Assembly: GCF_000025965.1 (NCBI RefSeq)
Contig: NC_006513.1
Coordinates: 3,775,400 to 3,839,399, forward strand
From: Aromatoleum aromaticum EbN1
Lineage (GTDB): Bacteria > Pseudomonadota > Gammaproteobacteria > Burkholderiales > Rhodocyclaceae
Reading direction: 5' to 3'
DNA: 64,000 nt
Shown here: positions 33,804 to 51,039 of the stretch, in pieces
How the letters are laid out: each line of letters opens with the position of its first letter
Position numbering within the stretch: position 1 is the stretch's first letter
Translations under genes and position numbers: made by a program
The notes under the pieces: model-generated
What the model was told of the DNA's origin: nothing
The model's database searches: none
What the model saw: the letters and a program-made list of their open reading frames with translations, nothing else

Positions 33804-34790
33804 ATGACTGCCCCGAGTGCCTCTCTCTTCGATTCTGACCAAGCGTGGCTGACCACCCCGCAGGAAGCGCTTGTCGCTTGGCTGATGGCCCCGGATTTCG
33901 TGATAACGAAGGCAGGGACGCAGCAGCCGCTGCGAGCGTCCTCGGTCGTCGTATATCGGGCGATGGGGAGCAAGTTCGTCCGCGAGGTCCTGCTCGGGGG
34001 AGACGGACGCCCGCTGAAAACCTGGCGGGACGTGGAGGCTGAAGACATTCACACTTTCCTCGCCAGGAACGAACTGAAGCGCGGCATCCGCAACCGGTAC
34101 GTGCGTCTCCTCGAGCGCCTCTTCGACCACTTGATGGCGAAGGGCATTGTTCCCGGCAACCCGGCCAGGGGGTTGGCGATCAAGGAACCCTCGAAGTCCA
34201 ACCAGTATAACGACAAGACACAATGGCTCACCGAGGCCCAGCAGGAAGCCGTGGTGGCCGCCCTGCCACAACCTGAAGGATGGAAAGGCGCGCGGAACCG
34301 GGCACTCGTCGCCACGGTTCTGGGCGGTGGCCTGAAGGTGAGCGAGGTCATCAAACTGACCAACGGCTGCGTCGGCCCCCGTCAGGAGGACGGCAGCCTC
34401 TACATTGATGTTTACCCGGCCGGGGCAGGACGCCGACACCGAACCCGGGTCGCGGTCTTTGCCGCGGCCATCCTGATGGAATGGATGACCACCAGGAAGC
34501 AGCTGACCATCCCAAGCGAACTGCTGTTCCCGGCCAAGCTGGCAGGTGGAGTACTGCACCCGGCGACAGTGTATCGGCAAGTCGCTGCAGTGCTGGCAGA
34601 GGCCAGGATCGACCCGACCCTCATCAAGCGTCGGGGAGCGAGGACCTTGCGGAACACATTCGCCATCAACGAGCTTGAGGAGGGCAAGCAGCCGGAGCTG
34701 GTGGGCGAATACCTCGGTCATCGGGCAGCTCGATCGACCAGGTACTACACGGCGCTGGTACGCAAGCCTTCTCCCTTTCGCGAAAAATAG
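33804..34790 (+). CDS. divergent tyrosine recombinase/integrase
   Basis: A 328-residue protein with an N-terminal SAM-like core-binding domain (about 20-125) and a C-terminal catalytic domain. The layout is that of XerC/D-type recombinases: GGGLKVSEVIKL at the box of catalytic Arg I, ARTLRNTF at box II, LGHRAARSTRYY at the end. Two catalytic positions differ from the family: Lys178 stands where Arg I is expected, and Arg280 replaces the histidine of H-x-x-R. Arg283, His306 and the nucleophile Tyr315 are kept. The ATG at 33804 is preferred to a TTG five codons upstream. It is convergent with the nine-gene operon and follows a nested inverted repeat. It may recombine a special site or be catalytically weakened. 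Confidence 0.8.
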   Translation: MTAPSASLFDSDQAWLTTPQEALVAWLMAPDFVITKAGTQQPLRASSVVVYRAMGSKFVREVLLGGDGRPLKTWRDVEAEDIHTFLARNELKRGIRNRYVRLLERLFDHLMAKGIVPGNPARGLAIKEPSKSNQYNDKTQWLTEAQQEAVVAALPQPEGWKGARNRALVATVLGGGLKVSEVIKLTNGCVGPRQEDGSLYIDVYPAGAGRRHRTRVAVFAAAILMEWMTTRKQLTIPSELLFPAKLAGGVLHPATVYRQVAAVLAEARIDPTLIKRRGARTLRNTFAINELEEGKQPELVGEYLGHRAARSTRYYTALVRKPSPFREK

Positions 34791-34828: not shown

Positions 34829-35221
34829 TTAAGGGACTGGCGCAACGAACTCGCGATGCCGCAACGCAGCTTCGTCCACTGCTTGCTCGAGGGCCATCCC
34901 CTCCTCCATTCCGTCCATGATCATCCGTTGCAGGATGGCGCCGAGCATCTCAACGTTGGCAGCCATGAGCGGTTCGATCTCGCGTAGAAATTCACATGCA
35001 GGCGGGTCGTAAGCGTATGGCGCGAGAAACTCCTCAAGTATGCGACCGGTAGCGAGCGCATAGCACATATCGTAGATCAGGTTGAACGTGCGCTGAAACT
35101 GCAACCCGTCGCTGCTGCCCACGTTCATGCGGATTTCCTCGCCAAGGTCACGCCGAAAATCCGCCAGCATGTACCTCACCTTCGCCCTGACGACGTCTTC
35201 TGCGGTGAATTCCCATTCCAT
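34829..35221 (-). CDS. small acidic helical protein, last gene of the molybdoenzyme operon
   Basis: A 130-residue protein that I do not recognise. It begins MEWEFTAEDVVRAKVRYMLA, is predicted almost fully helical, acidic and Met-rich, and has two cysteines (DMCYA and PPACEFL). There is no signal peptide, so it is cytoplasmic. The ATG at 35221 has GGAGGAGG seven bases before it, which rules out the longer start at 35254. It lies 25 bases after the polyferredoxin gene. A role in maturation or regulation of the oxidoreductase is an inference from position only. Confidence 0.75.
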   Translation of the reverse strand: MEWEFTAEDVVRAKVRYMLADFRRDLGEEIRMNVGSSDGLQFQRTFNLIYDMCYALATGRILEEFLAPYAYDPPACEFLREIEPLMAANVEMLGAILQRMIMDGMEEGMALEQAVDEAALRHREFVAPVP

Positions 35222-35246
35222 GACGACTCCTCCTCCGTGTCTGGGC

Positions 35247-36374
35247 TCAGCCAAAGATAGCGGTGAACGCGTCCTCGTCGTCGCGACAGATCGGACAGGT
35301 TTCCCGTGTGGTATGCGAAACGAAGTGCCGGTCGCAACGCGAACAGCGCTGCTTCGACCTGGCCAGCAGCACTCGGGCGGGCTGTTCCGGCCGAGCGTCG
35401 AAGTTCACATCGGCGTCGAGCACACGCGGCTGACAGACCTCCAGACAAACGGCGCACCCGACGCAGCGGTCGGTGTCGAACTTGAGTTGCCAGTCGGCAG
35501 GCGACTCCTCGATCTCGATTGCCCCCGTCGGACAAACCCGAAAACAGGCTTCGCAGGTGGTGCAACCGGGCTGCAGCGACAATGCCATCAGTGGCAGCGC
35601 TTCGTGAAGGGGGACCGAAAACGGCTGGTCATCCCGGCGCTCGCACACGATCTGCAACAGTTCGCGGCGCTCGGGCAGTGCGTACGCTCCCGGTCGTATC
35701 GCCTTGTCGGGTGTAGGCAGCGAAGATGAGGTGGGTTCAGTCGCCTGAGCCAGCTCGTCCGCCCCGCGACCGACCAGGCGGCGGAACCATTGTCGACGGC
35801 TCGCCGCGAAGCTGCTGCCTCTCTCGATGGTCGGCGGCGATGTATTTCCAGACTCCACCTCCGGGGCGACCCAGTCAGCGCGGGCATCCGCTGTTCCAGC
35901 CGCTTTTGTCAGAACCTCGCAGGCCTCCAGATTGAGCGCGAGCTGCGCAGCGCCCCGTGCACCGTGCGCGCACTCGCCGCAATGACTCGCGCCGCGCATC
36001 GTCACCGGAATTCGGCGTTTCGCCAGATACGCCAGGCTGCCCGCATCCACCGCACCAAGGCAGGGTACGACCGCGTCGGCGTCGGCGACGGCGACGGCGC
36101 CGGAAGGCGCGCAGGCGATCGTGAAACGATCCTGTCGAATCGCCTGCCGCAACATGTCCATCGGCTTGAAACCGCCACTTGCCAAAGCATCGGTGGGACA
36201 GGCCGTCACGCACAGCGCGCAGTTCTGGCAGCGAACAGAGTCGATGGTGACGCCCTCGTCGGAGAGGATAATCGCCTCGTGAGGACAGGCCGCCGTACAA
36301 CGTCGGCATTCGCTGTACCGAAAGCGGTAGCGGGTGCAGCGGCTGGCGCGAAACTCAGGGTAGGCGATGCTCAC
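35247..36374 (-). CDS. polyferredoxin with C-terminal zinc-ribbon-like motif
   Basis: A 375-residue cytoplasmic Fe-S protein. The N-terminal pair of cluster motifs is an irregular C-x9-C-x2-C-x3-C (13-30) and a regular C-x2-C-x2-C-x3-CP (49-59). A middle region has further cysteines (ASHCGECAHG). A C-terminal pair, CTTCEACFRVCP and CVGCAVCLEVCQ, would hold two more [4Fe-4S] clusters, and the tail CSRCDRH...CPIC is zinc-ribbon- or rubredoxin-like. The GTG start overlaps the stop of the rhodanese-like gene (GTGA), showing translational coupling. It may pass electrons between cytoplasmic donors and the membrane complex, or assist cluster insertion. No domain reveals a substrate. Confidence 0.75.
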   Translation of the reverse strand: MSIAYPEFRASRCTRYRFRYSECRRCTAACPHEAIILSDEGVTIDSVRCQNCALCVTACPTDALASGGFKPMDMLRQAIRQDRFTIACAPSGAVAVADADAVVPCLGAVDAGSLAYLAKRRIPVTMRGASHCGECAHGARGAAQLALNLEACEVLTKAAGTADARADWVAPEVESGNTSPPTIERGSSFAASRRQWFRRLVGRGADELAQATEPTSSSLPTPDKAIRPGAYALPERRELLQIVCERRDDQPFSVPLHEALPLMALSLQPGCTTCEACFRVCPTGAIEIEESPADWQLKFDTDRCVGCAVCLEVCQPRVLDADVNFDARPEQPARVLLARSKQRCSRCDRHFVSHTTRETCPICRDDEDAFTAIFG

Positions 36375-36841
36375 TTGGGCGCCGTCCGTAGTTGCTGCAA
36401 GGCCGGCCCCTGCTCGCAGGTGTTCTTCGGTATGACGAACTGGACCGCCCTCCCCCCCGGCGGCTCTGCGCTGATGGCACTGACGACACTCTCCCAGGCA
36501 TCGACACCCCCCTCGACCGCGAAAACGGTCTTGCCAGGGTGGGCAGCGGCAATTTTTTCGGCCACGCTCAGAGCCCTGGCATCATCATCGGCAACCACCA
36601 CGACCGCGGCGACCGGATCGATTCGGATGCCTTCGCGATAGACCAACGCTTCCGCGATCGCGCGGGATTGTCGCTGCGCGTCACTGCGCGCATCGATCAC
36701 GCAACACGGGGGACTGGCACGCAATGCCAGCTTGAGCTGGGTCTCGTTGCGCAGGCTTGCCGCCGCCTGAGCGGGCGCGGTAACGCCGATGAAAGTGGCG
36801 ACGATCAGGGCATGAATGATGAATTTCGCCCGCATGGTCAT
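36371..36841 (-). CDS. periplasmic rhodanese-like protein lacking the catalytic cysteine
   Basis: A 156-residue protein with a Sec signal peptide (MTMRAKFIIHALIVATFIGV, cleavage after AQAAA). The rest follows the rhodanese fold: CCVIDARSDAQ, an AAVVVVADDDARALSVAEKI strand-loop-helix where the active-site loop should be, and the closing VFAVEGGVDAWESVV. The loop reads ADDDAR, so the persulfide-forming cysteine is missing. An unusual Cys-Cys pair stands just before the first conserved Asp-Ala-Arg. Start and stop overlap both neighbours. It may bind a sulfur or metalloid ligand, or be a structural or redox partner, not a sulfurtransferase. Confidence 0.7.
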   Translation of the reverse strand: MTMRAKFIIHALIVATFIGVTAPAQAAASLRNETQLKLALRASPPCCVIDARSDAQRQSRAIAEALVYREGIRIDPVAAVVVVADDDARALSVAEKIAAAHPGKTVFAVEGGVDAWESVVSAISAEPPGGRAVQFVIPKNTCEQGPALQQLRTAPK

Positions 36842-37527
36842 GCGTCCTCGACAGCAGGTGAGACGGCGTCGGACGGCGACACGGCCGGCAGCAACTCGGC
36901 ACGTCGCGCAAAGAGACTTGGCGACAGCGCAATCTGCGCCGCCTTGCCGTATGCCACCCAGTCGGCGAGCGCCGGTTCGGATTGCCGACGCGGCGCAATC
37001 CACAGACGTTCGCCCAGATCCTCTACCAGGCCTGCGCACAGGTTGAGATCGGTGTCATCGACGATGTCGACCTGCACGAGCGCGATCGAGACGCCGCGCT
37101 TCTTCATCTCGCCGAGCCACCAGTTCGCCCGGATATCCGTTGCACTGTCGTCGGCGCGCAGGATCTCCCAGCCCGCTTCGCACAGCGATGGCGTCACGAC
37201 GCGAAAATCGGCATTCGATACCATGTCGAATGACCATGCGACCTCCATGCGACGCGCGGGAACGAAAACACCGATCCGCTCGGCGCCAAACCGCGCAACG
37301 AGCCTTGGAACAAGTTCCGCGTCGCGCAGCGCGGCCTCTCCGAGCAACACCCGCCGAGCGCCGGCGGCGAGCAGCTCACTTGCCCGCGCCTCGCCTTCAG
37401 CGGGCAGGATGATTGCGACGGCCGAGGCGAGCCGAGCGCCAACGGCATCTCCATCGATGACGAACACCTCTGCATCGACATCGGGCGGAGTCTCGGAGGC
37501 GCCGACAAGGCATGCGCATCGGATCAT
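36838..37527 (-). CDS. unrecognised 229-residue protein of the molybdoenzyme operon
   Basis: I do not recognise a family with confidence. The protein is soluble, without signal peptide, and alternates hydrophobic strands and helices (VFVIDGDAVGARLASAVAII, GARRVLLGEAALRDAELV, RIGVFVPARRM, SIALVQVDIVDDTDLNLCAG, LGERLWIAPR). This is compatible with a beta/alpha barrel; the VDIVDDTDL segment faintly recalls HisA/HisF-type barrels, a weak hint only. It overlaps its neighbours by four bases on each side (ATGA), so it is firmly part of the operon. Function unknown. Confidence 0.7.
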   Translation of the reverse strand: MIRCACLVGASETPPDVDAEVFVIDGDAVGARLASAVAIILPAEGEARASELLAAGARRVLLGEAALRDAELVPRLVARFGAERIGVFVPARRMEVAWSFDMVSNADFRVVTPSLCEAGWEILRADDSATDIRANWWLGEMKKRGVSIALVQVDIVDDTDLNLCAGLVEDLGERLWIAPRRQSEPALADWVAYGKAAQIALSPSLFARRAELLPAVSPSDAVSPAVEDA

Positions 37528-37976
37528 GACGGCAGCTCTCCATTGTGCTCGAACTTCGCGTAAACAAAGGGAAACATAGGGTTCTCGCCGGCCGCTGGCA
37601 GCGATGCGATCAGCGGGCGTAGTTCCTGGAGCGAGCCGATGATCGGATCGATCTGCACACCCAGAAAGTGCGGCCGGTACTTGCCGAGCACCACGAGCGC
37701 ATTGTCCAGCAACAGCAGCGCGCCCTCCTGGTTGTGGTTCTGCGTGAAGAACAGCGCAAGCGTGGCAAACGCAAGCCCCTGCAGAAACTCGGCCTCGGGG
37801 TCACGCGTGCCCAGCACGCAGTTGCGGATCAATCTCGACCAGCGTTCATTGAGCAGGTCGTGCAGTGCGCAGAGTTCGTTGCCGTTCCACAGCGCAGCGA
37901 CTTCCGTCCAGTCGATTTCCGACAGCACCTGGCGATCGGGCGCAAGAATGGGTCGGGTTTGAAGATCGAGCAGCAT
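37524..37976 (-). CDS. DUF309-family protein
   Basis: A 150-residue cytoplasmic helical protein. The segments ALWNGNELCALHDLLNERW, EFLQGLAFATLALFFTQNHN and NALVVLGKYRPHFLGVQIDP follow the DUF309 pattern: a helix with H-x-x-L-E/N-x-x-W, then F-L-Q-G-L and a P-x-x-x-G turn. The family's role is unknown. I start at 37976, 17 bases after the TorD-like gene, because similarity begins there. Its presence in a molybdoenzyme operon suggests a maturation or stability factor; that is inference. Confidence 0.7.
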   Translation of the reverse strand: MLLDLQTRPILAPDRQVLSEIDWTEVAALWNGNELCALHDLLNERWSRLIRNCVLGTRDPEAEFLQGLAFATLALFFTQNHNQEGALLLLDNALVVLGKYRPHFLGVQIDPIIGSLQELRPLIASLPAAGENPMFPFVYAKFEHNGELPS

Positions 37977-37993
37977 GGTCGGGTCCCTCGCCG

Positions 37994-38830
37994 TCAACGC
38001 AGGTCGTGAAGCGTATGCACGGGGGCCGCACGGCTCGGGCCCGTTGGTGCCCCTTCGCAACTGTTGCAGACGGGCTCGTCGGGGTTGAACTCCACCCGGA
38101 TCTCGGCCTTCGGCACGACTGCCCGACCGTGGTCGAGATCGTCGATGCGCAACCCCATCGCCGCGATTTCCTCGTCCGCGAACCCACCCAGGAAACGCGC
38201 CATCTCGCGATAGAACGAGTGCTCGGCTGCCTGCTCGATCAAGCGCGCATAGCCGCGCACCCAGCGCCCCAGGTGCTGCGTCCAGAAGCGCTTCACCTCG
38301 CGTTCCAAACGCCGGTAATCGGCCTCATCGCCGCGCGCGAGGGCCAGGCTGCAGCGCTCCAGCAGCTCGGCAACGAACATGAGCTCGACTCCGAGCTGGT
38401 CCGGAAACACCTCGAAGCGGCCCTTGTGCAACGCGAAACCCCACTTCGCGTAGGTCTGCCCGACCTTGAAATGCGGGTCCTGCCTGTAGCGTCCGGTCAG
38501 CCGCACCGACTCGACCGGTGGAAAGCCACCGGTCGCCGCGAACAGCGTCGTGTATTCGCACGCCAGACGCTCGACCAGGGACTCGGTGTCCGGCAAGGTG
38601 AAATCCACATCGAATCGCACCCCCACGCCGGCAAGGCTTTGCAGCACCTCCGGCCGGCGCATCGCCTGCACGAACGACGGCCCCGGTTCCTCGACGAAAG
38701 CGCCCGCCAGCAACCGATACACATCCGCGCGGGCCGCACACTCGGCGCCCAGCTCAGCGGGCAAAAGGCGTGGTCCGGCGAAGTCGGCCGATACGCCGTC
38801 GTCTTCGATCGCAAGCAAGGTTTTCAGCAT
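37994..38830 (-). CDS. TorD/DmsD-family molybdoenzyme chaperone
   Basis: A 278-residue all-helical protein. The RADVYRLLAGAFVEEPGPSF start, the LACEYTTLFAATGGFPPVES segment and the GVELMFVAELLERC helix are those of TorD-like chaperones, which bind the Tat signal of the catalytic subunit and hold it until cofactor loading. It lies 12 bases after the catalytic-subunit gene. A C-terminal CNSC pair is an addition not usual in TorD and might bind metal. Confidence 0.85.
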   Translation of the reverse strand: MLKTLLAIEDDGVSADFAGPRLLPAELGAECAARADVYRLLAGAFVEEPGPSFVQAMRRPEVLQSLAGVGVRFDVDFTLPDTESLVERLACEYTTLFAATGGFPPVESVRLTGRYRQDPHFKVGQTYAKWGFALHKGRFEVFPDQLGVELMFVAELLERCSLALARGDEADYRRLEREVKRFWTQHLGRWVRGYARLIEQAAEHSFYREMARFLGGFADEEIAAMGLRIDDLDHGRAVVPKAEIRVEFNPDEPVCNSCEGAPTGPSRAAPVHTLHDLR

Positions 38831-38842
38831 GGTGGCTCCTGT

Positions 38843-41476
38843 TCAGTGTCCGCCGGACGCCTTGGGCTTCACGCTTTCCGGCCCCGCCCAGGCCGCCATC
38901 TCGGGGTGCATCCTGCGATGCAGGTCCCCGGTGTACGCGTAGCGCATGGTTTCCTTGTAGGCCGCGTAATGCTTGTCCCAGTCGCCCTGGATGTCGCCGT
39001 ACTTGTCGTCCGGTCCTGCCTTGCTGACCTTCACCACGGTGTCGTACCAGCCCTGTGAGCCGCCGATCGGATCCGCGACTACCGGGATGATCGCGTTCGG
39101 ATGCACGCCGCGGTCGTCCCACCACACGTTGTCGAGGTCGGGATCATCGGTGCCACCGAAGGCCGGCTTGTCCTTCAGCTTCAGCGTCGCCAGCCTTCCA
39201 TATTCCCAGTGGCCGAAACCGGTCGCGATCGAGATCACCTTCGGGTGGATGCCTTCAGTGACGTAGGCCTTGGTGACGAGATAGCCGACCGAGCTCTCGA
39301 CCCGCACCAGGTCGCCGGTCCTCACGCCGAGCTTCTTCGCCGTCTCCGGGTTCATCCAGGCCGGGTTGCTGTGCGCGATCTCGGCCAGCCACTTCACCGC
39401 CGCCGTGCGGGATTGCTTGTGCACGTTGAGCTTGAAGGTCGACAGGATCATCTCGTCGTCCTTCATGGTTTCGTGCCACGGGATGCGCTTGAAGGTGGGC
39501 ATCGGATTGAAACCGTACTCGGCCCACTCATCGACGCGCACGTTGATCAGCCGGTTGCCGGTGGGGAAGCCCACGTAGTCGCGGCCGTTCCGGCGGATGC
39601 CGATCGCCTTGCCGTTCTTCGTGATCAGTCCGTGCGCGTCCACCATCGCGCCTTCCATGTCGGTGGCCGACAGTTCCTTCTTGTACAGGCTGTACTCGGC
39701 CTGGATCTCACGCCCGGTCTTGTCGGTGACCTTGCCGGTCCTGGGGTCGAGCGTGCCGTAGATCGGCCACACGCCGTGCTTCTTCAGAAAGTCGAGCCCG
39801 CCCGCCTCCTTCAGCCCGGGCACGTTGTCGAAGTGGTGGCGCATGTAGTCTTCGCCATCCTTGAACTCCCAGAACTGTTTCATGCCGCGAGAGCCGTCCG
39901 GGTCGAGCTTCCAGATGATGTCGCGCAGCAGAACACGGTTCTCGCGCGATTCGCCGAGCGACTTGTGCACCGGCTGGCGGATGCCCAGCCACGGCCACAG
40001 CGAGTTCGGCATCGACTCGGGCTCCCAGCGCTCGAGGTAGGGGCAGTCGGGCAGGATGATGTCGGCCAGCGCCGTCTCCTCACCCATGTGCGAGCTCATC
40101 GAGATGAAGTACGGGATCAGCTTCTCGTCGCGGTACAGCTTGCCCCACACCGCCTGCGCGCCCGGGTTGGTGTAGACCGGGTTGTCCTGGTAGGTGAAGG
40201 CGACGTTGATCTTCTGCCGCCCCTCGGCAATCCAGAACGGCACCAGGTGGCTGACCTTGTGCGCGGCGAGCGGATACTCGGGAGGGTGCGCGAGCACTGA
40301 ATCCTGCGTCGGTCCCGGCGGCTGCGGCATCGGCTGCGGCCAGCCCATGCCGCGCGGCAGACAGTAGCCGCCACGCTTCTCCACGTTGCCGGTGATGATC
40401 GGCAGCATCATGCAGGCCTTTTCGTTGTACGAGCCGTACAGGTGCTTGGCCGGGCCACGGTAGGTGAACAGCGTCGCCGGCTTGGTGGTGGCGAACTCGC
40501 GCGCGATGCGCTCGATCGTCTGCACCGGCACGCCGGAGATCTTCGATGCCCACTCCGGGGTGTATTGCGCGTAGTGCGCCTTCAGTTCATCGACCGTGAC
40601 GTTGGTCCAGGTGTCGATGAACTCGCTGTCCTGCAGGTCCTCGCGCAGGATCACGTGGCCGATCGCCAGCGCCACCGCGCCGTCGGTGGCGGGGAACACC
40701 GGAATCCACTCGTCCGAGAAACCGGCGGTGTTCGACAGGCGCACATCGAAGGTGACGATCTTCATGTGGTTGTCCACCCGGCCTTCGGTCACGCGCTGGG
40801 ACAACGGATTGTGGAAGTAGGCCGCCTCGAGGATGTTGGAGCCGAAGTTCAGCACGTACTTGGCGTTGGCGAAGTCGGGCGTTTCGATGTCCGGCCCCCA
40901 GGTCGGCTCCTGGCCAACTTTCTTTGACGATTCGCACACCGAGGTGTGATTGAGCACGGTCGCCGAGCCGAGCGTCTTCATGAAACGCTCGAGTGTGCCG
41001 CCGGTGCGGTTGCGCCCCCACTTCAGCATGATCGTGTTGGGGTCTTCCTTCAGCGCGGCATCGAGCTTCCCGGCGACCTCGGTGAGCGCTTCGTCCCAGG
41101 TGATGCGCTTCCACTTGCCCTCGCCGCGTGCCCCGATCCGCTTGAGCGGATACAGGATGCGATCGGGGTCGTAGCTGTACCACATACCGGAATTGCCCTT
41201 GGCGCACAGGCGGCCGCGCGTCGAGACGTGTTCCGGATTGCCTTCGAGTTTCACGACGCGATCGTTTTCGACGTAGGCGATGGCGCCGTCCTGGATGTTG
41301 CAGACATGGCAGTTCACCGGGATCGCCTTGCGCTCGGCGGCGTTGGCCGGGTTGAAATCCTTGCCCCCCAGTTCGTTTTCCATTGCGTGCAGCAATCGGG
41401 GTGCGGCGGCTGCCGCGGCCGTGGTGCCGGCACTGACCTGCAGGAAGGTGCGGCGGGTGATTTTCGGGAAGTCCAT
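38843..41476 (-). CDS. Tat-exported molybdopterin oxidoreductase, catalytic subunit
   Basis: An 877-residue DMSO-reductase-superfamily enzyme with bis-MGD cofactor. A Tat signal (TRRTFLQVS, residues 7-15) sends it to the periplasm. The Fe-S motif is Cys56-x2-Cys59-x3-Asp63-x27-Cys91: the third cysteine is replaced by Asp with spacing otherwise exact. Cys181 in SVCESSKK is at the place of the Mo-ligand cysteine of the PsrA/PhsA/TtrA/ArrA group. Later cofactor segments include FTYRGPAKHLYGSYNEKACM, YFISMSSHMGEETALADIIL, and the C-terminal cap with MNPETAKKLGVRTGDLVRV. Order Fe-S, anchor, catalytic subunit recalls ttrBCA and srdBCA. Candidate substrates are selenate, arsenate/arsenite, tetrathionate or polysulfide, and PadB (phenylacetyl-CoA oxidation) has similar architecture. 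I cannot choose among them. Confidence 0.9.
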   Translation of the reverse strand: MDFPKITRRTFLQVSAGTTAAAAAAPRLLHAMENELGGKDFNPANAAERKAIPVNCHVCNIQDGAIAYVENDRVVKLEGNPEHVSTRGRLCAKGNSGMWYSYDPDRILYPLKRIGARGEGKWKRITWDEALTEVAGKLDAALKEDPNTIMLKWGRNRTGGTLERFMKTLGSATVLNHTSVCESSKKVGQEPTWGPDIETPDFANAKYVLNFGSNILEAAYFHNPLSQRVTEGRVDNHMKIVTFDVRLSNTAGFSDEWIPVFPATDGAVALAIGHVILREDLQDSEFIDTWTNVTVDELKAHYAQYTPEWASKISGVPVQTIERIAREFATTKPATLFTYRGPAKHLYGSYNEKACMMLPIITGNVEKRGGYCLPRGMGWPQPMPQPPGPTQDSVLAHPPEYPLAAHKVSHLVPFWIAEGRQKINVAFTYQDNPVYTNPGAQAVWGKLYRDEKLIPYFISMSSHMGEETALADIILPDCPYLERWEPESMPNSLWPWLGIRQPVHKSLGESRENRVLLRDIIWKLDPDGSRGMKQFWEFKDGEDYMRHHFDNVPGLKEAGGLDFLKKHGVWPIYGTLDPRTGKVTDKTGREIQAEYSLYKKELSATDMEGAMVDAHGLITKNGKAIGIRRNGRDYVGFPTGNRLINVRVDEWAEYGFNPMPTFKRIPWHETMKDDEMILSTFKLNVHKQSRTAAVKWLAEIAHSNPAWMNPETAKKLGVRTGDLVRVESSVGYLVTKAYVTEGIHPKVISIATGFGHWEYGRLATLKLKDKPAFGGTDDPDLDNVWWDDRGVHPNAIIPVVADPIGGSQGWYDTVVKVSKAGPDDKYGDIQGDWDKHYAAYKETMRYAYTGDLHRRMHPEMAAWAGPESVKPKASGGH

Positions 41477-41500
41477 TTCGAGATCTCCTTGCCTGGCCGG

Positions 41501-42352
41501 TCAGTACAGGGTCTGCAACTGTTGGGGGCCCATCAGCAGCGCGTAACGCAGCGCCGCCCCGCCCGCGAGCACGAGCAGGCCGGCCAGCACCACACCGAAC
41601 TGCTGGCGGCCGAAAGGCGCGAGCAGCAGCGCGATCGGCGCTGCGGTGCCGGCAACGATGCCGATCCCGACGAAGATCAGTCCCATCGTGCCAGTCGTGA
41701 GGATCAGGTAAGTCAGCTCCTGCGCCGAGCCGCCGTAGTGGGTCGTGCCGAGGATGGACACCAGCATCACGCCGACCGCGCCGGTCGACCACAGCAGGTA
41801 CTGGCGCAGCGTGGCCTGGGTCGCAGCGTTGCTGCCAGCCAGCAGGGACGCCACTGCGGAGCCCGATGCTATTGCCATCGCAACGAACAGCACCGGCATG
41901 ATCGGGGTGTTCCACACCGGCCGCGACTGATGCACCGTGAGGTCGAAGCCGGTGTAGATCGGCAGGCCGAGCGCCAGCAGCGCCGCGATTGCCGCCAGCC
42001 ACCTGCCGCCCCCGCCCCGGCGCAGCACGAACAGATAGGCCACCAGCGCGATGCCGAAGGCGACGATGTTCAGCGCCCCCCAGGCCAGCGGCGAGCCGAA
42101 GTTGAGATAGAAGGGATTGAGGATGTTGAGAAAGCGCAGCGGCTGGGACAGATCCACGATCAGCAGCACGCCGCCGATCACGAGCAGGGCGAGCGCGCCC
42201 CAGGCCGCACTCGCGCGGATCGGCCTGAGCGCTTCGTCGTGCCACGACAGGAAGGACAGGAAAGCCAGGCCGGCGACGATGCCGATGACGAAGAAGTAGA
42301 TCGCGTAGGTCGCGTGCCACGACACATCGTGGAACCAGACGTAGTCACCCAT
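41501..42352 (-). CDS. NrfD/PsrC-type membrane anchor subunit
   Basis: A 283-residue membrane protein with about eight hydrophobic helices and short loops, beginning MGDYVWFHDVSWHATYAIYF. Length and helix pattern match NrfD/PsrC/TtrC-like quinone-binding subunits without haem. It anchors the periplasmic Fe-S and Mo subunits and exchanges electrons with the quinone pool. It lies ten bases after the Fe-S gene and 24 before the catalytic one. Confidence 0.88.
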   Translation of the reverse strand: MGDYVWFHDVSWHATYAIYFFVIGIVAGLAFLSFLSWHDEALRPIRASAAWGALALLVIGGVLLIVDLSQPLRFLNILNPFYLNFGSPLAWGALNIVAFGIALVAYLFVLRRGGGGRWLAAIAALLALGLPIYTGFDLTVHQSRPVWNTPIMPVLFVAMAIASGSAVASLLAGSNAATQATLRQYLLWSTGAVGVMLVSILGTTHYGGSAQELTYLILTTGTMGLIFVGIGIVAGTAAPIALLLAPFGRQQFGVVLAGLLVLAGGAALRYALLMGPQQLQTLY

Positions 42353-42362
42353 GGTTGTCTCC

Positions 42363-43073
42363 TCAGATGTCGAAGTGGCGCTTGAACGCGGTGCGCTCCT
42401 GCTCCATCACCTCGGGTTGGCGGTAGGCGTCGCGCGGGAACTCGGTCGCATTGCGATCGGCGCCGATGTAGAAGACGTGCGGCTTGGTTCCTTCCTCGGG
42501 GCGCAGCACCTGGGTGGCGTGGGTCGCCACCAGATACGAAACCTCGCTGTTGGGATCGTTGAGGTCGCCGAAGATGCGCGAGCGCCCGATGCAGGTCTGC
42601 ACGCAGGCCGGCACCAGGTTCTGGGTGACGCGATGGAAGCAGAAGGTGCATTTGTCGACCACCTTGGTGATCGGCGTGTAGGTCCGGTGCGAGGGCAGCA
42701 TGAAGCGCGCGTTGTAGGGGCAGGCCGCCATGCAGCTACGGCAGCCGATGCAGCGCTCGTAGCGTTGCAGCACGAAGCCGCCGTCGTCCACCTTGAAGGT
42801 GGCCTCCACCGGGCAGCTGCGGACGCAGGGCGGATCGTCGCAGTGGTTGCACAGCCGCGGCAGGAAGTGCTTCTTCACGTTGGGGTACTTGCCGACCACC
42901 TTGTACGGCACCCAGGTGCGATTGACCCCGAGCGGGGTGTCGTACTCAGCCTTGCACGCCACCTGGCAGGCCATGCAGCCGATGCAGCGACGCGTGTCGA
43001 CCACCATCGCGAACCGGCGCTTGCCCGGCACCTCCCTGGTCTCGATCGGCGAGACCCTGAGTTCTTCACTCAT
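42363..43073 (-). CDS. four-cluster Fe-S electron-transfer subunit
   Basis: A 236-residue protein of the DmsB/NrfC/TtrB type. Four complete cysteine groups are seen: C30-x2-C33-x2-C36-x3-C40, C75-x2-C78-x4-C83-x3-C87, C108-x2-C111-x2-C114-x3-C118 and C142-x2-C145-x11-C157-x3-C161, enough for four [4Fe-4S] clusters. There is no signal peptide of its own, so export would be with the Tat-bearing catalytic subunit. It is the first gene of the operon, about 90 bases downstream of the transcription start expected from the sigma-54-type promoter. Confidence 0.92.
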   Translation of the reverse strand: MSEELRVSPIETREVPGKRRFAMVVDTRRCIGCMACQVACKAEYDTPLGVNRTWVPYKVVGKYPNVKKHFLPRLCNHCDDPPCVRSCPVEATFKVDDGGFVLQRYERCIGCRSCMAACPYNARFMLPSHRTYTPITKVVDKCTFCFHRVTQNLVPACVQTCIGRSRIFGDLNDPNSEVSYLVATHATQVLRPEEGTKPHVFYIGADRNATEFPRDAYRQPEVMEQERTAFKRHFDI

Positions 43074-43176
43074 GCTTTCACCTCCGTTGAATGCCGCCGC
43101 GTGCTCCGCGTTCGAGATGGCGATTCACGGCTCGCGATCGCTTGGCCGTGAACGCCTCCCTCCACGCTTGAACATG

Positions 43177-43192
43177 TGCAATAACCGGACCA
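43177..43192 (-). promoter_or_regulatory. sigma-54-type promoter of the molybdoenzyme operon
   Basis: The minus strand reads TGGTCCGGTTATTGCA, which aligns with the -24/-12 consensus TGGCACG-N4-TTGCW with exact spacing (GG and GC ten bases apart) and two mismatches. It points towards the Fe-S subunit gene. The divergent NtrC-type regulator with GAFTGA makes a sigma-54 promoter here expected. Confidence 0.7.
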
Positions 43193-43269
43193 TGAACAGG
43201 GAAATAGGCGAAAGGCCATGGCGTGCAAGGGATTGCGAAAACCACCGCCCCGCCGCCCCGGCTGCCGGC

Positions 43270-43285
43270 GTTACAGCGCCGTAAC
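43270..43285. promoter_or_regulatory. proximal GTTAC-N6-GTAAC dyad (probable enhancer site)
   Basis: GTTAC, six bases, GTAAC: a perfect dyad centred 87 bp upstream of the -24 GG of the operon promoter. It is repeated at 43314-43329. Distance and spacing suit binding sites for the NtrC-type activator encoded at 45694-47034. Confidence 0.65.
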
Positions 43286-43313
43286 ATCGCTGTCGATTGC
43301 TGCGCTGCAAGCT

Positions 43314-43329
43314 GTTACCGCTGCGTAAC
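43314..43329. promoter_or_regulatory. distal GTTAC-N6-GTAAC dyad (probable enhancer site)
   Basis: A second perfect GTTAC-N6-GTAAC dyad, its centre 44 bp (about four helical turns) from the first, so both would lie on one face of the helix. It also lies 18 bp upstream of the possible -35 box of the divergent sensory operon, so it could serve autoregulation. Confidence 0.65.
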
Positions 43330-43346
43330 GGCGCCCTCCGCACCTG

Positions 43347-43376
43347 CTGACAGGACGCAGGATCGGCGCCTATCAT
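43347..43376 (+). promoter_or_regulatory. possible sigma-70 promoter of the sensory operon
   Basis: CTGACA, 18 bases, TATCAT. The -10 box ends only seven bases before the ATG at 43384, so a transcript from here would be nearly leaderless. This makes the assignment tentative. Confidence 0.35.
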
Positions 43377-43383
43377 CGTCGCC

Positions 43384-44262
43384 ATGGACCGAGACGTTGC
43401 CCTTCTCGAAGCCTGCGGCCGGCGCGCATTCCTGCGAGACGTCGGCGCTTTGGCAGCACTGACGGCGCTGCCCGCCCATGCTGCAGACTTCCCGGTGCGC
43501 ATCGGCCTGACACCGGTCTTTCTCGACGACCAGATGAGTTTCCTGAGCCAGTGGAGACGCTGGCTGGAGGTGAAGCTGGGGCGCACCGTCGTGTTTGTCC
43601 AGCGCGGCAGCTATCGCGAAGTCATCGATCTGCTTCGCTCCGGCAAACTCGATTTCGCCTGGGTGTGCGGTTATCCCTATGTGCGCCACCGCCAGGAACT
43701 GAAGCTGGTGGCAGTGCCGCTGTGGCGGGGCGAGCCCTGCTACCAGTCCTACCTCATCGTGCCAGCCGACGACGCCCGAACGACGACGCTCGCCGAGCTG
43801 CGTGGCAAGGTATTCGCCTACTCCGACCCCGACTCGAATTCAGGCTATCTCTACCCGCGCTACCTGCTCACCACGCAAGGCGAAAATCCCGACAATTTCT
43901 TCTCGCGCAGTTTCTTCACGTGGGCGCATCGCAAGGTGGTCGAGGCAGTCGGCATCGCATTGGCCGACGGCGGGGCAGTCGACGGCTATGTCTGGGAGAC
44001 GCTCGTCGAATTGCACCCGGACCTTACCCGGAGCACGCGCGTGATCGAGCGCTCGCCGCCGCTCGGTTACCCGCCTTTCGTCGCCCGGTCGGACATTCCG
44101 GCAGTCGAACTGGCACGCTTTCGCGGCGTCCTGCTGGACATGGCGGTCGATCCCGAAGGCATGGACCTGCTCCATCGCCTGCGCCTCGACGGCTTCATCC
44201 CGGGCAAACCGGAGCTGTTCGACGAGATTGCACGCATGGCCGCGCGCGTGAAAAATCCATGA
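43384..44262 (+). CDS. PhnD-like periplasmic ligand-binding protein (sensor partner)
   Basis: A 292-residue protein of the PhnD/substrate-binding type II fold. The N-terminus GRRAFLRDVGALAALTALPA is a Tat-like signal. Binding-protein features are RIGLTPVFLDDQMSFLSQWR, GSYREVIDLLRSGKLDFAWV and SDPDSNSGYLYPRYLL. Two cysteines, Cys95 (WVCGYP) and Cys119 (GEPCYQSYL), lie near the expected ligand cleft. No transporter genes follow; instead a kinase gene overlaps its stop codon. This is the pattern of AioX/ArxX proteins that present arsenite to a kinase, and of the PhnD-like part of TtrS. I infer that it presents the inducing substrate to the kinase. Confidence 0.85.
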   Translation: MDRDVALLEACGRRAFLRDVGALAALTALPAHAADFPVRIGLTPVFLDDQMSFLSQWRRWLEVKLGRTVVFVQRGSYREVIDLLRSGKLDFAWVCGYPYVRHRQELKLVAVPLWRGEPCYQSYLIVPADDARTTTLAELRGKVFAYSDPDSNSGYLYPRYLLTTQGENPDNFFSRSFFTWAHRKVVEAVGIALADGGAVDGYVWETLVELHPDLTRSTRVIERSPPLGYPPFVARSDIPAVELARFRGVLLDMAVDPEGMDLLHRLRLDGFIPGKPELFDEIARMAARVKNP

Positions 44263-45707
44263 AGACGCTCGGCGACCTGTCACTGCGCTGGAAGATTCCG
44301 CTGCGCGTCGTGGCGGCAGTCCTGGGCACGGCGCTCGCAGTCACGGTCGCGCTGGTCGCGCGCGACTATGACATCGTGCGCCAGAACCTCGAAGGCCACG
44401 CGCGCAGCATGGGACGGGTGCTGGCGCATACGCTCGTCATGCCGGTGCTGCACGACGACATCTGGCGTGCCTACGAGATCCTGCAGTCGGCTCATGAGCC
44501 CAACCCCGCCGCCCCGGAACTGCAGGCGCTGGTCGTACTGGTGACGGATGCGGATTATCGCGTCTTCGTGTCGACCCGGCCGCGCGCGTTTCCCATCGGC
44601 ACCAGCGCTGCGGCGCCGGGTGGGGCCTACGGCTTGTTGCGCGCCGAAATCTCGCGCGGCAGTCCGGCCGATCAGCGCATCCTCGAGTCTGCCGACAGCC
44701 CGCTGTTCTTCATCATGACCCCACTGATCGCGGACGGCGTCGCGCTCGGCCACGTCATCCTCGCCTACGCCCAGCCGGCGCTGCTTCCCCGTTTCCTCGG
44801 CCAGGTCGGGCGGGCAGCGTGGGTCACCCTGGTGGTGCTTCTCATCCTCCTCCCGGTGTCCTGGATGTGGGCGCGACGCACCGCGCAGCCCCTGCTGCGC
44901 CTGGCGGGAGCGATGAAGCAGATCCCGCTCGAGCTCGAGGCGGCCCGGCTCGCGGACCTTCCGCGCAGCGGCGACGAGATCGGCCAGCTCGGTGAAGCCT
45001 TTCGCCGCATGGTGGCGGAGATGCAGGTCAAGCAGGAGATGGAACGGCAGATGCTCAGCTCGGAGCGGCTCGCAGCGATCGGTCGACTGACTGCCGGCAT
45101 CGCACACGAGATCAACAATCCCCTCACCGGCATGCTCACGGCGATCAATACTTTTCAGCGCCACGGGGCGGATCCGCAGCGCGCCGAGCGCACGCTGTCG
45201 CTGCTGCAGCGCGGGCTGACGCAGATCCGCAACACCGTCAGCGCCCTGCTTGTGGAAGCGAAAGTCGAAGACCGCTTCTTCGCTCCCGAGGACATCGACG
45301 ACCTGGTGATTCTGGTCGAAGCCGAAGCCCATGCGCAGGCCGTGCGCATGGTCGTCGACGGGCGCATTGCCGAACCTGTTCCGCTCCCGGCGACCCTGCT
45401 GCGGCAGATCGTGCTCAATCTGCTGCTCAACGCGGTCGCAGCGGCGGGCGAAGGCGGCACGGTGCGCCTCAATGCCTACAGCTCGCCACAGCAGCTGACG
45501 CTCGCCGTCTTCAACGACGGCGCGCATATCGAGCAGCGGGAAATGGCCTATCTGTTCGAGCCCTTCGCGACCGGGAGGGAGACCGGACACGGCCTGGGGC
45601 TGTGGATCGTGTATCAGATCACCCGACAGCTCAACGGCGAAATAGCGGTTGAAAGCGAACCCGGCGCCACGACGTTCACCATCGAGATTCCCTATGGCAA
45701 ATCCTAA
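44259..45707 (+). CDS. membrane sensor histidine kinase
   Basis: A 482-residue kinase: membrane helix at about 13-35, periplasmic sensor domain, second helix at about 183-204, HAMP (about 205-262), then HisKA with His283 in GIAHEINNPLTGM and a catalytic domain with N box RQIVLNLLLNAVAAAGEGG and G box GRETGHGLGLWIVYQI. The ATG overlaps the stop of the PhnD-like gene as ATGA, and the gene overlaps the regulator gene by 14 bases, so all three are translationally coupled. The sensor domain probably touches the ligand-bound binding protein. Confidence 0.92.
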   Translation: MKTLGDLSLRWKIPLRVVAAVLGTALAVTVALVARDYDIVRQNLEGHARSMGRVLAHTLVMPVLHDDIWRAYEILQSAHEPNPAAPELQALVVLVTDADYRVFVSTRPRAFPIGTSAAAPGGAYGLLRAEISRGSPADQRILESADSPLFFIMTPLIADGVALGHVILAYAQPALLPRFLGQVGRAAWVTLVVLLILLPVSWMWARRTAQPLLRLAGAMKQIPLELEAARLADLPRSGDEIGQLGEAFRRMVAEMQVKQEMERQMLSSERLAAIGRLTAGIAHEINNPLTGMLTAINTFQRHGADPQRAERTLSLLQRGLTQIRNTVSALLVEAKVEDRFFAPEDIDDLVILVEAEAHAQAVRMVVDGRIAEPVPLPATLLRQIVLNLLLNAVAAAGEGGTVRLNAYSSPQQLTLAVFNDGAHIEQREMAYLFEPFATGRETGHGLGLWIVYQITRQLNGEIAVESEPGATTFTIEIPYGKS

Positions 45708-47034
45708 CGAGACGCGGTCGAGGCTCTGTCTGATCGAGGACGACGAGATCATCGGCGAATCCCTCACCGACCGCTTTCGGCTCGAAGGCTTCGATGTCGA
45801 TTGGTGCCGTACCGGCGTCGAAGCCAGGGCTGCGCTTGCCGCGCACCGCCACGCGGTGGTCATCAGCGATATCCGGCTGCCCGACTGCAACGGTGGCGAG
45901 CTGTTCCTCGATCTGCTCGCATCGGTGCCTATGCTGCCACCCTTCCTGTTCATGACCGCCTTCGGCAGCATCGATCGCGCTGTCGAACTGATCAAGGCCG
46001 GCGCCGCAGACTACATCACCAAGCCCTTCGACCCGGATGCGCTGATCGCCAAAGTGCATGCGCTGGCCGAGGGCTACGGGGCGAGACAACCCTTGGCGAG
46101 TGCAGAAGTCCTGGGCGTGTCACCCGCGATGCGACGGATCGCCGAATCGCTGCCCCGCCTCGCCCGCCACGCCGACAGCCTGCTCATCACCGGGGAGTCG
46201 GGCGTCGGCAAGGAACACGTGGCGCGCCTGTTCCACCGCTACGCTGCCGGTCCGCAGGCACCGTTCGTCGCCGTCAATTGCGCCGCCATACCGGACACCC
46301 TCCTCGAGGCGGAACTGTTCGGCTACGAGAAGGGTGCGTTCACCGGCGCGACCAAGGCGAGGCGGGGCTATTTCGAGCAGGCAGGCGGAGGCACCGTGTT
46401 CCTCGATGAAATCGGCGATATGCCCCTGTCGATGCAGGCCAAGCTGCTGCGCGTGCTGCAGGAACACAGGCTGCAGCGCCTGGGCGGCGAAGCCCCGCTC
46501 GCCGTCGAGTTCCACCTGGTCTGTGCGACGCATTGCGATCTCCGGGCAATGGTCGACGAAGGCCGCTTTCGCGACGATCTCTACTACCGCATCCACGTCA
46601 TTCACCTGCGCATTCCGCCGTTGCGCGAACGCCGGGAAGACATTCCCTGGTTCGTGCATCACTTCGTTGACGCTTTCAATCGCGCCCACCCCGAGGAAAA
46701 GCGGCGCATCGACCCGCGCACCGAGGAAGCACTCACCCGCTATGCGTGGCCGGGAAACGTCCGCGAACTGAAGCATGCGGTCGAGCGCGCCTGCATCCTG
46801 TCCCCTGGCCCGCTCCTCGGGGCCGACGCGTTCTTCGGCGAAGGACTGGACGCAGGTCCTGACCAACCCCCGCCTTCACGTCCGCTGGCCGACTACCTGA
46901 TGGATTGCGAACGCGATTACCTGCACATGGTCCTCGAGCAGCACGGCGGCCACATGACCCGCACTGCCGAGGCGCTCGGCATTACGCGCAAGACGCTGTG
47001 GGAAAAACTGCGTCGCCTCGGGCTTCAGGCGTGA
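45694..47034 (+). CDS. NtrC-family sigma-54-dependent response regulator
   Basis: A 446-residue protein. The receiver domain has the acidic pair in LIEDDE, phospho-acceptor Asp59 in VVISDIRLPD and lysine in YITKPFD. The AAA+ domain has Walker A GESGVGKEH, the sigma-54 contact loop GAFTGA (214-219) and FLDEIGDMPLSMQAKLLRVL. The C-terminal Fis-type helix-turn-helix is TRTAEALGITRKTLWEKLRR. It should bind the two GTTAC-N6-GTAAC dyads and activate the sigma-54-type promoter of the divergent operon. Confidence 0.93.
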   Translation: MANPNETRSRLCLIEDDEIIGESLTDRFRLEGFDVDWCRTGVEARAALAAHRHAVVISDIRLPDCNGGELFLDLLASVPMLPPFLFMTAFGSIDRAVELIKAGAADYITKPFDPDALIAKVHALAEGYGARQPLASAEVLGVSPAMRRIAESLPRLARHADSLLITGESGVGKEHVARLFHRYAAGPQAPFVAVNCAAIPDTLLEAELFGYEKGAFTGATKARRGYFEQAGGGTVFLDEIGDMPLSMQAKLLRVLQEHRLQRLGGEAPLAVEFHLVCATHCDLRAMVDEGRFRDDLYYRIHVIHLRIPPLRERREDIPWFVHHFVDAFNRAHPEEKRRIDPRTEEALTRYAWPGNVRELKHAVERACILSPGPLLGADAFFGEGLDAGPDQPPPSRPLADYLMDCERDYLHMVLEQHGGHMTRTAEALGITRKTLWEKLRRLGLQA

Positions 47035-47094: not shown

Positions 47095-47337
47095 TTACGC
47101 GGCAGCCCGGATCCACTCGGCAACGCTCGCGGGCGTCGGGATGCGCCCGGACGACACAAGCTTATCGTTGATCACCAGCCCCGGCGTCTTCAGCACGTCG
47201 TAGGCGATGATCTGCTGCATGTCGGTGACCTTGGCGATCTCCGCCTCCACACCGGTGGCGGCAACCGCCTCGCGTGCGACTTCCTCGAGCTTGCGGCAGT
47301 TGGCGCAGCCGGGGCCGAGAACCTTGATGCTGAGCAT
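47095..47337 (-). CDS. small thioredoxin-fold redox protein
   Basis: An 80-residue protein of the thioredoxin_3 (redox-active disulfide protein 2) family. The active site is Cys11-x2-Cys14 in GPGCANCRKLEEV, and the cis-proline segment is VLKTPGLVINDKLV. It begins two bases after the permease stop codon, so the two are a pair. Such pairs occur widely in metalloid-resistance regions; the redox partner is unknown. Confidence 0.85.
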   Translation of the reverse strand: MLSIKVLGPGCANCRKLEEVAREAVAATGVEAEIAKVTDMQQIIAYDVLKTPGLVINDKLVSSGRIPTPASVAEWIRAAA

Positions 47338-47339
47338 GA

Positions 47340-48809
47340 TCAGACTCCTTTCAGTGGGGACGGGGTTGCGTGACGGCGGACCAGTGACAGCAGCACTGCC
47401 AGCACGGCGATGAAGCCCGCCAGATACAGGGCGAGCGAAAGCAGCGGCGCACCGTCGATCCAGGCGCCGTAGGTGAGCCCGGCTACCGCGCTGAACAGCG
47501 CCACCAGGCCGACGTAGGTGAAGGTTTTCCGGCGACCGATGATGGCCGAGATGATCAGGATGCTCTGCAGCGACAGTTCGGGGTCCGACATCAAGTAGGC
47601 GAGCAGCGGCCCGCGGTGCATGCCGAGGTCGAGGAACATTTTCGCAATCGGCACTTCCACCAGGGTGGGAAAGTACATGAACACGCCGAACGCGACGCCG
47701 GCGAAGTTGCCGGCGGCGGAGTTGGTGCCCGCCACCATCTCGATCCATTCCGGGCGAATCAGCATGCGGATCATGCCGACGATGAACACGCCAATCACCA
47801 GCAGCGGGAAGATCTGCTTCACGAAGCGCCACGACTCCCACAGCCAGTCGCCCAGTTGCTGTTCAGACAGGCGGTGTCGTGCGATCGCATACAGTGCTGC
47901 CAGACTGATGGCGACCGCAAAGAACTTGCCAGTCACCCCCACACGCAAGCCCTCGGGCACTGCCTGCACCGACAGCGCGGCCACCAGCAGCGTTACCGCA
48001 ATCAACACGAGACTGACCCACGTCCAGGCATTGGGTCCGTCCTGGATGTTCTCCAGCCCACGCCAGGCGCTGAAGCCGATCGAGGCCAGCAGCGCGATCA
48101 GTACCACGCCCTGCACCGACACGCCCTCCTCGCCCTTCGCCGCGTCGTAGGGGACAAGTCGATCGAGCACGCCCTGCCAGGCCTGCGCATCACCGAGCGG
48201 CAGGTCGAGATGAACGTAGGTGCCGGTCAGCACGCCGAGCTTCAACGTGCCCGCGAGCAGCAGCGCAACCCAGACGAACAGGAACACCAGCGCCATGCGC
48301 CCCATGCCCTCGCCCTGGGCGGCGAACGGACTGTCCGTGGCCAGATCGTGCGCGGCATCATCGGCGCGAAAGATCAGCGCCATGATCAGCCCGATGCCAA
48401 TGCCGAAGATCAGCGACAGCACGAAGCGCGCAATCGCCAGGTCCGGTCCGATGATGCCGCCGGTGTAGACCAGCGCCAGAATGTTGGCCGCCGGGGCGAA
48501 GAACAGGAAGGTGATCGCCGGCCCGAGGCCCGCACCCTTCTTGTAGATGCCCGCGAACAGCGGAACGATGGTGCAGGAGCACACCGCCAGTAGCGAGCCA
48601 GCCGCCGCTGCCGCCGGATAGGATACGGCTTTCGGCGAGTTGCGCCCGAGGAAGCGGGTGACGGTCTCTTTCGGGATCAGCGCCGCCATCGCCCCGGCAA
48701 TGAAGAAGGCCGGCAGCAGGCACAGCAGCACGTGTGCTGCGAGATAGGCGGCCAGATTGCCCAGCCCGCCGTAGAAAACAGGAAGAACCCAGGAAAGCAT
48801 GTTGTCCAT
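47340..48809 (-). CDS. YraQ/ArsP-type permease (DUF318)
   Basis: A 489-residue membrane protein with at least ten hydrophobic helices in two halves. The signature AVCSCTIVPLFAGIYKKGAG in the first half and the FMYFPTLVEVPIAKMFLDLG repeat in the second identify the DUF318 permease family, which includes the organoarsenical exporter ArsP. The adjacent thioredoxin-fold gene supports a thiol-linked transport role. It lies convergent to the sensory operon. A link with the molybdoenzyme system is plausible but not proven; no regulator gene of its own is present. Confidence 0.82.
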   Translation of the reverse strand: MDNMLSWVLPVFYGGLGNLAAYLAAHVLLCLLPAFFIAGAMAALIPKETVTRFLGRNSPKAVSYPAAAAAGSLLAVCSCTIVPLFAGIYKKGAGLGPAITFLFFAPAANILALVYTGGIIGPDLAIARFVLSLIFGIGIGLIMALIFRADDAAHDLATDSPFAAQGEGMGRMALVFLFVWVALLLAGTLKLGVLTGTYVHLDLPLGDAQAWQGVLDRLVPYDAAKGEEGVSVQGVVLIALLASIGFSAWRGLENIQDGPNAWTWVSLVLIAVTLLVAALSVQAVPEGLRVGVTGKFFAVAISLAALYAIARHRLSEQQLGDWLWESWRFVKQIFPLLVIGVFIVGMIRMLIRPEWIEMVAGTNSAAGNFAGVAFGVFMYFPTLVEVPIAKMFLDLGMHRGPLLAYLMSDPELSLQSILIISAIIGRRKTFTYVGLVALFSAVAGLTYGAWIDGAPLLSLALYLAGFIAVLAVLLSLVRRHATPSPLKGV

Positions 48810-50891: not shown

Positions 50892-51039
50892 GGTTTTTTC
50901 CTCCTTCCAACCGATAGGACTTCGGCAGGACGAACGACGGGGAGTTCTGCGGCCGGGAATTGCGCAAGTACCCAGTCGGTCCGCAGCCACTCGGGCGCCG
51001 GCGCCAACCCGGACGTGGAAAGGTAGCTGCTCCGTCACC

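Follow-up and report, generated by a model that had tools for sequence, protein, structure and literature searches.

What does the nine-gene molybdoenzyme operon of Aromatoleum aromaticum EbN1, a denitrifier well studied in the laboratory, do for its host? The operon and a divergent sensor-kinase-activator trio (X-S-R) lie in a window of 64,000 nucleotides, the whole stretch analysed (NC_006513.1, positions 3,775,400 to 3,839,399, forward strand), and encode an Fe-S subunit (B), a membrane anchor (C), a molybdenum (Mo) catalytic subunit (A), a chaperone (D), five accessory proteins and the regulators. A sequence-only reading of this DNA had listed twelve open reading frames, all of which we found at the claimed positions and strands. 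In our analysis the system is, on balance, probably an arsenite-induced respiratory complex that would oxidise arsenite to arsenate in the periplasm and pass the electrons to the quinone pool, making it a third type beside Aio and Arx. The sensor, the promoter region, the arsenic genes around related loci and the separate lineage of the catalytic subunit carry this reading.

A pattern scan of species genomes for close relatives yielded 60 loci whose Mo subunits are 75-97% identical to that of the window, the closest named relative being A. buckelii (97%). Judging by record titles, the hosts are nearly all Beta- and Gammaproteobacteria, with one Bradyrhizobium and one Phycisphaerae (perhaps misbinned). 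All nine structural genes were kept in the same order and on the same strand in 40/43 loci with enough sequence rightward, the small helical protein not being detected in L041, L050 and L056. The divergent trio was present in 42/43 loci with enough sequence leftward; it was missing from L040, and in L033 and L041 it was placed beyond the far end of the structural genes. Among 300 genomes of the order, scoring only the best few candidates per genome, we found the Mo orthologue in eight (seven and the window's own; hereafter carriers), below which the next relatives drop to 42% identity. The 229-residue accessory protein occurred at full length (at least 249.8 bits) in exactly these eight, and partial-profile matches in ten other genomes (26-39 bits) were taken as true HisF. 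The kept gene order and this co-occurrence rule out chance neighbours, and the accessory genes form a genuine unit, as the earlier reading had supposed.

The sensor gives the first indication of the substrate. X scored 231.8 bits with the AioX profile, 125.6 with ArrX and at most 47.2 with phosphonate/phosphite binders, and is 45% identical to AioX. Identity to the Sulfuricella homologues was 53% for ArxR, 41% for ArxS and 50% for ArxX, with kinase and activator matching at full length, and Pfam assigned HisKA/HATPase domains to the kinase and Sigma54_activat plus HTH_8 to the regulator. We aligned the pocket of 52 X sequences (the window, Azoarcus sp. KH32C and 50 loci) with the AioX residues of Rhizobium NT-26 as reference (available part of PMC5908839). 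Y88, Y131, S161, H192 and D210 were kept in 52/52 and C106 and S163 in 51, and all seven are present in the window. The hydrophobic V56-F57(I) loop, which ArrX lacks and AioX/ArxX possess, has V in 50/52 and F in 40 or I in 11 of the 52 (V and F in the window). In the sections available from PMC5908839, AioX and ArxX bound arsenite only among ten oxyanions, leaving antimonite, selenate, tetrathionate and thiosulfate unbound, and ArrX bound arsenate and phosphate. By sequence, X is of the arsenite-binding AioX/ArxX type; of what had been described as a PhnD-like protein, a kinase and an NtrC-type regulator, the divergent trio stands and is narrowed by identity to the ArxXSR/AioXSR type (background on AioXSR and RpoN: available part of PMC7533571).

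The intergenic region points to regulation by this trio. A -24/-12 element scoring at least 9/11 stood ahead of B in 43/52 intergenic regions (shuffles: mean 1.06, maximum 4) and, read in the opposite direction, in 2/52. The palindrome GTTAC-N6-GTAAC occurred in 39/52 regions (a raw count, without shuffle control) and twice before arxB2 in carrier G020; it was not found by pattern before the arx genes of Cereibacter or Sulfuricella. The operon probably does encode a substrate-induced respiratory molybdoenzyme, as first proposed.

Using a library from annotated arsenic islands, we surveyed about 7 kb of flank per locus (420 kb in total); 'phoB' matches were taken as the receiver domain of R and excluded from all counts. 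At least one arsenic-type gene was present in 22/60 loci. Per 60 loci we counted acr3 in 8, arsR in 9 (part of the matches below 50% identity), arsC of either type in 7, arsA in 2, arsD in 1, an ArsP-type permease in 13, an ArsE-type thioredoxin in 12 and arx in 2, and acr3, arsA, arsD or arx in 12. From the acr3 density of the eight carrier genomes, 0.12 acr3 genes were expected in this flank sequence against the 8 loci observed, a comparison that overstates the surprise because the loci are related. Acr3 was above cut-off in 7/8 carriers versus 0/5 genomes with 39-42% relatives of the Mo subunit. On plasmid pAZKH of Azoarcus sp. KH32C the cluster lies one small gene from a regulator-arsC-arsD-arsA-acr3 set, and in the window the activator gene is followed by an ArsP_1 permease and a thioredoxin-like domain of ArsE type. 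Since the sensor is AioX/ArxX-type and the flanks are enriched in arsenic genes, the substrate, earlier left open among metalloid and sulfur oxyanions, is narrowed to arsenic; selenium and sulfur oxyanions are now less likely.

The catalytic subunit scored below every family cut-off of NCBIfam considered here: PhsA was best with 338.6 bits (cut-off 694), followed by ArrA with 177.3 (1600), TtrA with 133.3 (1750) and AioA with 39.2 (359), and the best solved structure was 2vpw, listed as thiosulfate reductase. In two trees of 50 and 36 rows, the orthologues came together with full support in a single clade, separate from the rows of ArxA/ArrA, TtrA-like and 2vpw-like sequences. Of 62 orthologues, 17 served as tree rows; several window-genome paralogues were left out of the 50-row tree, and the 36-row tree drops 14 more rows (7 orthologues and 7 long-branched or partial). 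Many reference rows, TtrA-like ones included, score below their own family cut-offs, their labels standing for best match or context. An approximately unbiased (AU) test, made after a first tree on one of the groupings named in the earlier reading, rejected joining the orthologues with ArxA/ArrA (p 5.6e-10; cost 71.7 log units). The deep placement of the clade differs, lying beside ArxA/ArrA in the 50-row tree (86) and with TtrA in the 36-row tree (83/46). Missed cut-offs or separate clades rule out identity with TtrA, PhsA/PsrA, ArrA, ArxA or AioA. The claim of a subunit outside the characterised clades thus holds for all reference clades in these trees, which were built without SrdA, SrrA and AnrA (Se and Sb enzymes) and the PadB candidate. 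A PadB origin was rejected, as the Mo gene lying a few kb ahead of padI is only weakly similar (44.6 bits over residues 52-281, pairwise only).

The active site is highly conserved. The twin-arginine translocation (Tat) motif RRxF was present in 57/57 loci reaching the subunit start, and Asp63 took the place of the third Cys in the first Fe-S site (FS0) in 59/59 loci reaching it, whereas ArxA, ArrA, 2vpw and the 39-42% relatives have this Cys. R155, H177, T178, C181 and K186 were invariant in 59/59 loci. The aligned pocket R, H, T, C, K with GHWxYGR resembles that of ArrA (R, H, S, C, K, GHWAYGR), in which these residues bind arsenate, and differs from 2vpw.

Based on these features, we propose the following mechanism. 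Periplasmic arsenite would bind X at the equivalent of AioX Cys106, as the AioX-like pocket suggests, and X would activate S, which would phosphorylate R as in the known AioXSR. R would bind the GTTAC-N6-GTAAC boxes seen in the sequence and drive the sigma-54 promoter before B. Maturation of the A-B unit may fall to D together with the polyferredoxin resembling ArxB2 and three other accessory proteins (DUF309-like, HisF-related and small helical); the unit would exit via Tat with B carried along. A would oxidise arsenite at a Cys-ligated Mo-bis(pyranopterin guanine dinucleotide) (Mo-bisPGD) centre, and the electrons would pass FS0 with its Asp and the clusters of B, reach quinone at C and go on to nitrate or oxygen. 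More speculatively, the rhodanese-like protein with its Cys-Cys pair may keep arsenite available to A or the sensor.

The earlier reading had offered a reductase or an oxidase; of the two, oxidation is favoured because the sensor is arsenite-type and the hosts are known as denitrifiers. A respiratory arsenate reductase, that is, a new Arr type using arsenite as inducer, seems quite improbable to us, even though the aligned active-site residues are nearest ArrA, Lys186 included, and menD above cut-off in 4/8 carriers makes menaquinone possible there. X carries the AioX/ArxX loop missing from ArrX, and arsenate reduction by ubiquinol is uphill. Neither menD nor an mqnC match (E<=1e-20) was found in carriers G132 and G035, and the window genome lacked menD and had just one MqnC-like frame, below threshold; since this menaquinone survey is mixed, the ubiquinone argument is only partial. 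Still further down we rank a polysulfide/thiosulfate/tetrathionate-type sulfur enzyme, very unlikely here, that would sit in arsenic islands by chance or for thioarsenic detoxification. It would fit the best NCBIfam and structural matches, PhsA and 2vpw, the TusA/DsrE or rhodanese genes adjoining 30-32% relatives in Rhodococcus and haloarchaea, and several hosts named Sulfuritalea and Sulfuricella, which are sulfur oxidisers; the arsenite-type sensor, the conserved boxes and the acr3 enrichment speak against it, as do the lack of the R/H/K pocket in 2vpw and a separate TtrA-like gene in the window genome (1191 bits, below the cut-off of 1750).

An oxidase for some other trivalent or thiolated metalloid (thioarsenite, methylarsenite or antimonite), arsenite-induced via X and complementing Arx/Aio in the same island, is unlikely but deserves more weight than the sulfur and arsenate proposals. 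ArxA lies about 9-18 kb from the cluster in 3/8 carriers (G020, G150 and G182), which leaves room for different arsenic species; arx genes are also near loci L053 and L068, each enzyme in G020 has its own X-S-R unit, and FS0 and clade are distinct. On the other side, the X pocket is the arsenite-specific one of AioX/ArxX, which do not bind antimonite (available part of PMC5908839), and no ArrA/ArxA-type match at E<=1e-50 was found in 5/8 carriers, the window genome among them. AioA was above cut-off in 1/8 carriers, and not in the window genome. Several points nevertheless weigh against arsenite oxidation. The activity and direction of the enzyme are inferred from sequence, two arsenite oxidases would be redundant in the three carriers with ArxA nearby, and X-S-R modules track the host rather than the enzyme served (available part of PMC5908839), so the sensor alone leaves the chemistry unfixed. 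The short flanks of 38/60 loci have no arsenic-type gene, acr3 of the window genome is 0.84 Mb from the cluster, and Acr3 was not found at E<=1e-50 in carrier G148. Lys at the K186 site also occurs in two PhsA-like rows and is mostly Glu or Val in ArxA, so it is not peculiar to arsenic enzymes, and among the nearest non-orthologous relatives of A no arsenic link was seen.

With these points counted, we see a chance only a little better than even that the cluster represents a further class of respiratory arsenite oxidase, third after Aio and Arx and of separate evolutionary origin, found in denitrifying and sulfur-oxidising Beta- and Gammaproteobacteria, marked by the Asp-bearing FS0 and a private maturation set and missed when arsenic cycling is surveyed by aioA/arxA. 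The HisF-related, DUF309-like, small helical and Cys-Cys rhodanese-like proteins are proposed as this set. If this is true, gene surveys would count too little arsenite oxidation, since hosts that respire nitrate would hold a third enzyme; the system also links an enzyme of yet another lineage to the arsenite sensor and provides an FS0 cluster in which Asp occurs naturally.

Among the nearest known systems is Arx (ArxB2ABCD with ArxXSR; Sulfuricella pSCD, Azoarcus CIB and, by gene context, Cereibacter ORIO). Both have X-S-R with a sigma-54 activator (divergent in Sulfuricella too), a Tat-type Mo subunit, an Fe-S subunit, an NrfD anchor, a TorD chaperone, a B2-type polyferredoxin and, at some loci, adjoining ars genes. 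Likewise, moaA (GTP 3',8-cyclase) adjoins arx in Sulfuricella and is present in 12/60 loci of the new cluster (L012, L013, L030, L041, L042, L044, L045, L049, L052, L054, L056 and L060). However, the Arx order is B2-A-B-C-D instead of B-C-A-D, the ORIO catalytic subunit is 26.6% identical to A, which lies outside the ArxA clade, and ArxA has Cys at the position of Asp63. Aio (AioBA with AioXSR) has the X-S-R module in common, but the new operon has an NrfD anchor, no Rieske-type gene was seen in it, and the AioA cut-off was missed. Arr (ArrAB, ArrXSR) has similar aligned Mo-pocket residues and GHWxYGR, whereas the ArrA cut-off was missed and the bit score of X with ArrX is roughly half of that with AioX. 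Psr/Phs and Ttr are also NrfD-type complexes but differ in cut-offs, clades and pocket; Ttr has the B-C-A order (TtrBCA) and a PhnD-like sensor domain as well. The available parts of PMC6683785 and PMC6549141 credit bacterial arsenite oxidation to Aio and Arx alone, while those of PMC6620896 argue for a further enzyme in Thioalkalivibrio, proposing a Soe-like one, and those of PMC10100899 report unnamed novel branches whose best matches include PsrA/PhsA/SrrA-like ones. We found no description of the cluster in open-licence literature, including the available parts of PMC4207700, PMC5908839 and PMC7533571, with subscription papers and preprints outside the search.

The accessory set had been thought to have no known parallel. 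Part of it does have one, as the polyferredoxin is homologous over its full length to ArxB2 (role described as unclear in the available part of PMC6549141), but sits near the operon end; for the other four genes (DUF309-like, HisF-related, rhodanese-like and small helical), comparison with Arx proteins gave no significant counterpart. The DUF309 gene is present, its Pfam match being sub-threshold (21.4 bits, cut-off 27). The rhodanese-like gene is present too, its family label coming from reading the sequence, without a Pfam or NCBIfam match at E 0.001. Cys is missing from its active-loop region in 48/49 sequences, a Cys-Cys pair occurs in 42/49 and Cys142 in 49/49, and these Cys residues are a possible arsenite-binding site. 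The 229-residue protein has a confident model (predicted local distance difference test, pLDDT, 90.5) and its profile retrieves HisF (E 1.9e-9); it is apparently a HisF-related protein recruited to enzyme maturation. For the small protein, the best sequence match in the Protein Data Bank was not significant (E 0.76).

Coordinates of all features are collected in Table 1. Start codons of the DUF309-like, rhodanese-like, small helical, kinase and regulator genes were adjusted by eye, the regulator probably starting at 45694.

Table 1 Features of the operon, its regulators and its neighbours in the window.
Feature	Position	Strand	Evidence
B subunit, electron-transfer Fe-S protein, 16 Cys, space for four [4Fe-4S] clusters	42363..43073	-	Pfam
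C subunit, NrfD/PsrC-type membrane anchor	41501..42352	-	PF03916 110.5 bits
A subunit, Mo-bisPGD catalytic, Tat motif	38843..41476	-	PF00384/PF01568/PF04879
A subunit residues: Mo ligand Cys181; FS0 C56-C59-D63-C91; pocket R155, H177, T178, K186; GHWEYGR 755-761			
D, TorD/NarJ-type chaperone	37994..38830	-	PF02613 64.7 bits
DUF309-like protein, possible maturation factor	about 37524..37976	-	sub-threshold match
229-residue protein, HisF/HisA-related	36838..37527	-	profile
Rhodanese-like protein, probably exported	36371..36841	-	by eye
Polyferredoxin, ArxB2 homologue	35247..36374	-	27% over 357 aa, 79.7 bits to Sulfuricella ArxB2
Small protein outside known families, all-helical model	34829..35221	-	pLDDT 94.2
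X, AioX/ArxX-type arsenite sensor (binding predicted)	43384..44262	+	AioX profile, pocket residues
S, ArxS/AioS-type histidine kinase	44259..45707	+	HisKA/HATPase
R, ArxR/AioR-type sigma-54 activator	45694..47034	+	Sigma54_activat + HTH_8
Sigma-54 (-24/-12) promoter-like element TGGTCCGGTTATTGCA	43177..43192	-	103 bp ahead of B start codon
Palindrome GTTAC-N6-GTAAC, putative R-binding box 1	43314..43329	-	
Palindrome GTTAC-N6-GTAAC, putative R-binding box 2	43270..43285	-	
Neighbour: ArsP_1-type permease	47340..48809	-	PF03773 225.5 bits; kin genes in 13/60 loci
Neighbour: ArsE/MTH895-type thioredoxin-like domain, start approximate	47095..47334	-	TIGR00412 92.2 bits, cut-off 62; 12/60 loci

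Some more distant relatives of the Mo subunit were also recorded. The window genome holds a PSR-like paralogue of 36-39% identity near 593 kb (L069, Mo gene 7248-9770), accompanied by a kinase/NtrC pair and by genes that look cytochrome-like by eye; the paralogue has Gly at the aligned Mo-ligand Cys position, an alignment that is uncertain. A 30-33% family (L105, L106, L107 and L110), which pairs a Mo subunit with a large Fe-S protein, occurs in Thermomicrobium, Rhodococcus and haloarchaea. No sulfur gene was seen beside it in Thermomicrobium, and its neighbours are TusA/DsrE in Rhodococcus and rhodanese/TauE in haloarchaea.

The arsenic island of G020 (adjacent 20 kb stretches L130 and L131) holds the new cluster and a second X-S-R unit with arxB2ABCD. 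It also encodes ArsC, Acr3 and, at L131:8006-10666, a third molybdoenzyme whose partners, judged by eye, are Fe-S and cytochrome-like proteins. Genes for PstB-like phosphate-transport ATPases (by eye) flank L010, L031, L043, L059 and L066, and published arsenic islands are reportedly linked to phosphate genes too. In the window, positions 49551-51038 encode a protein distantly similar to erythromycin esterases (39.4 bits against a cut-off of 750), probably no resistance gene. A tyrosine recombinase at 33789-34790 lies right beyond the operon end, with a counterpart among the 60 loci only in A. buckelii (L009), and hints at an island border there.

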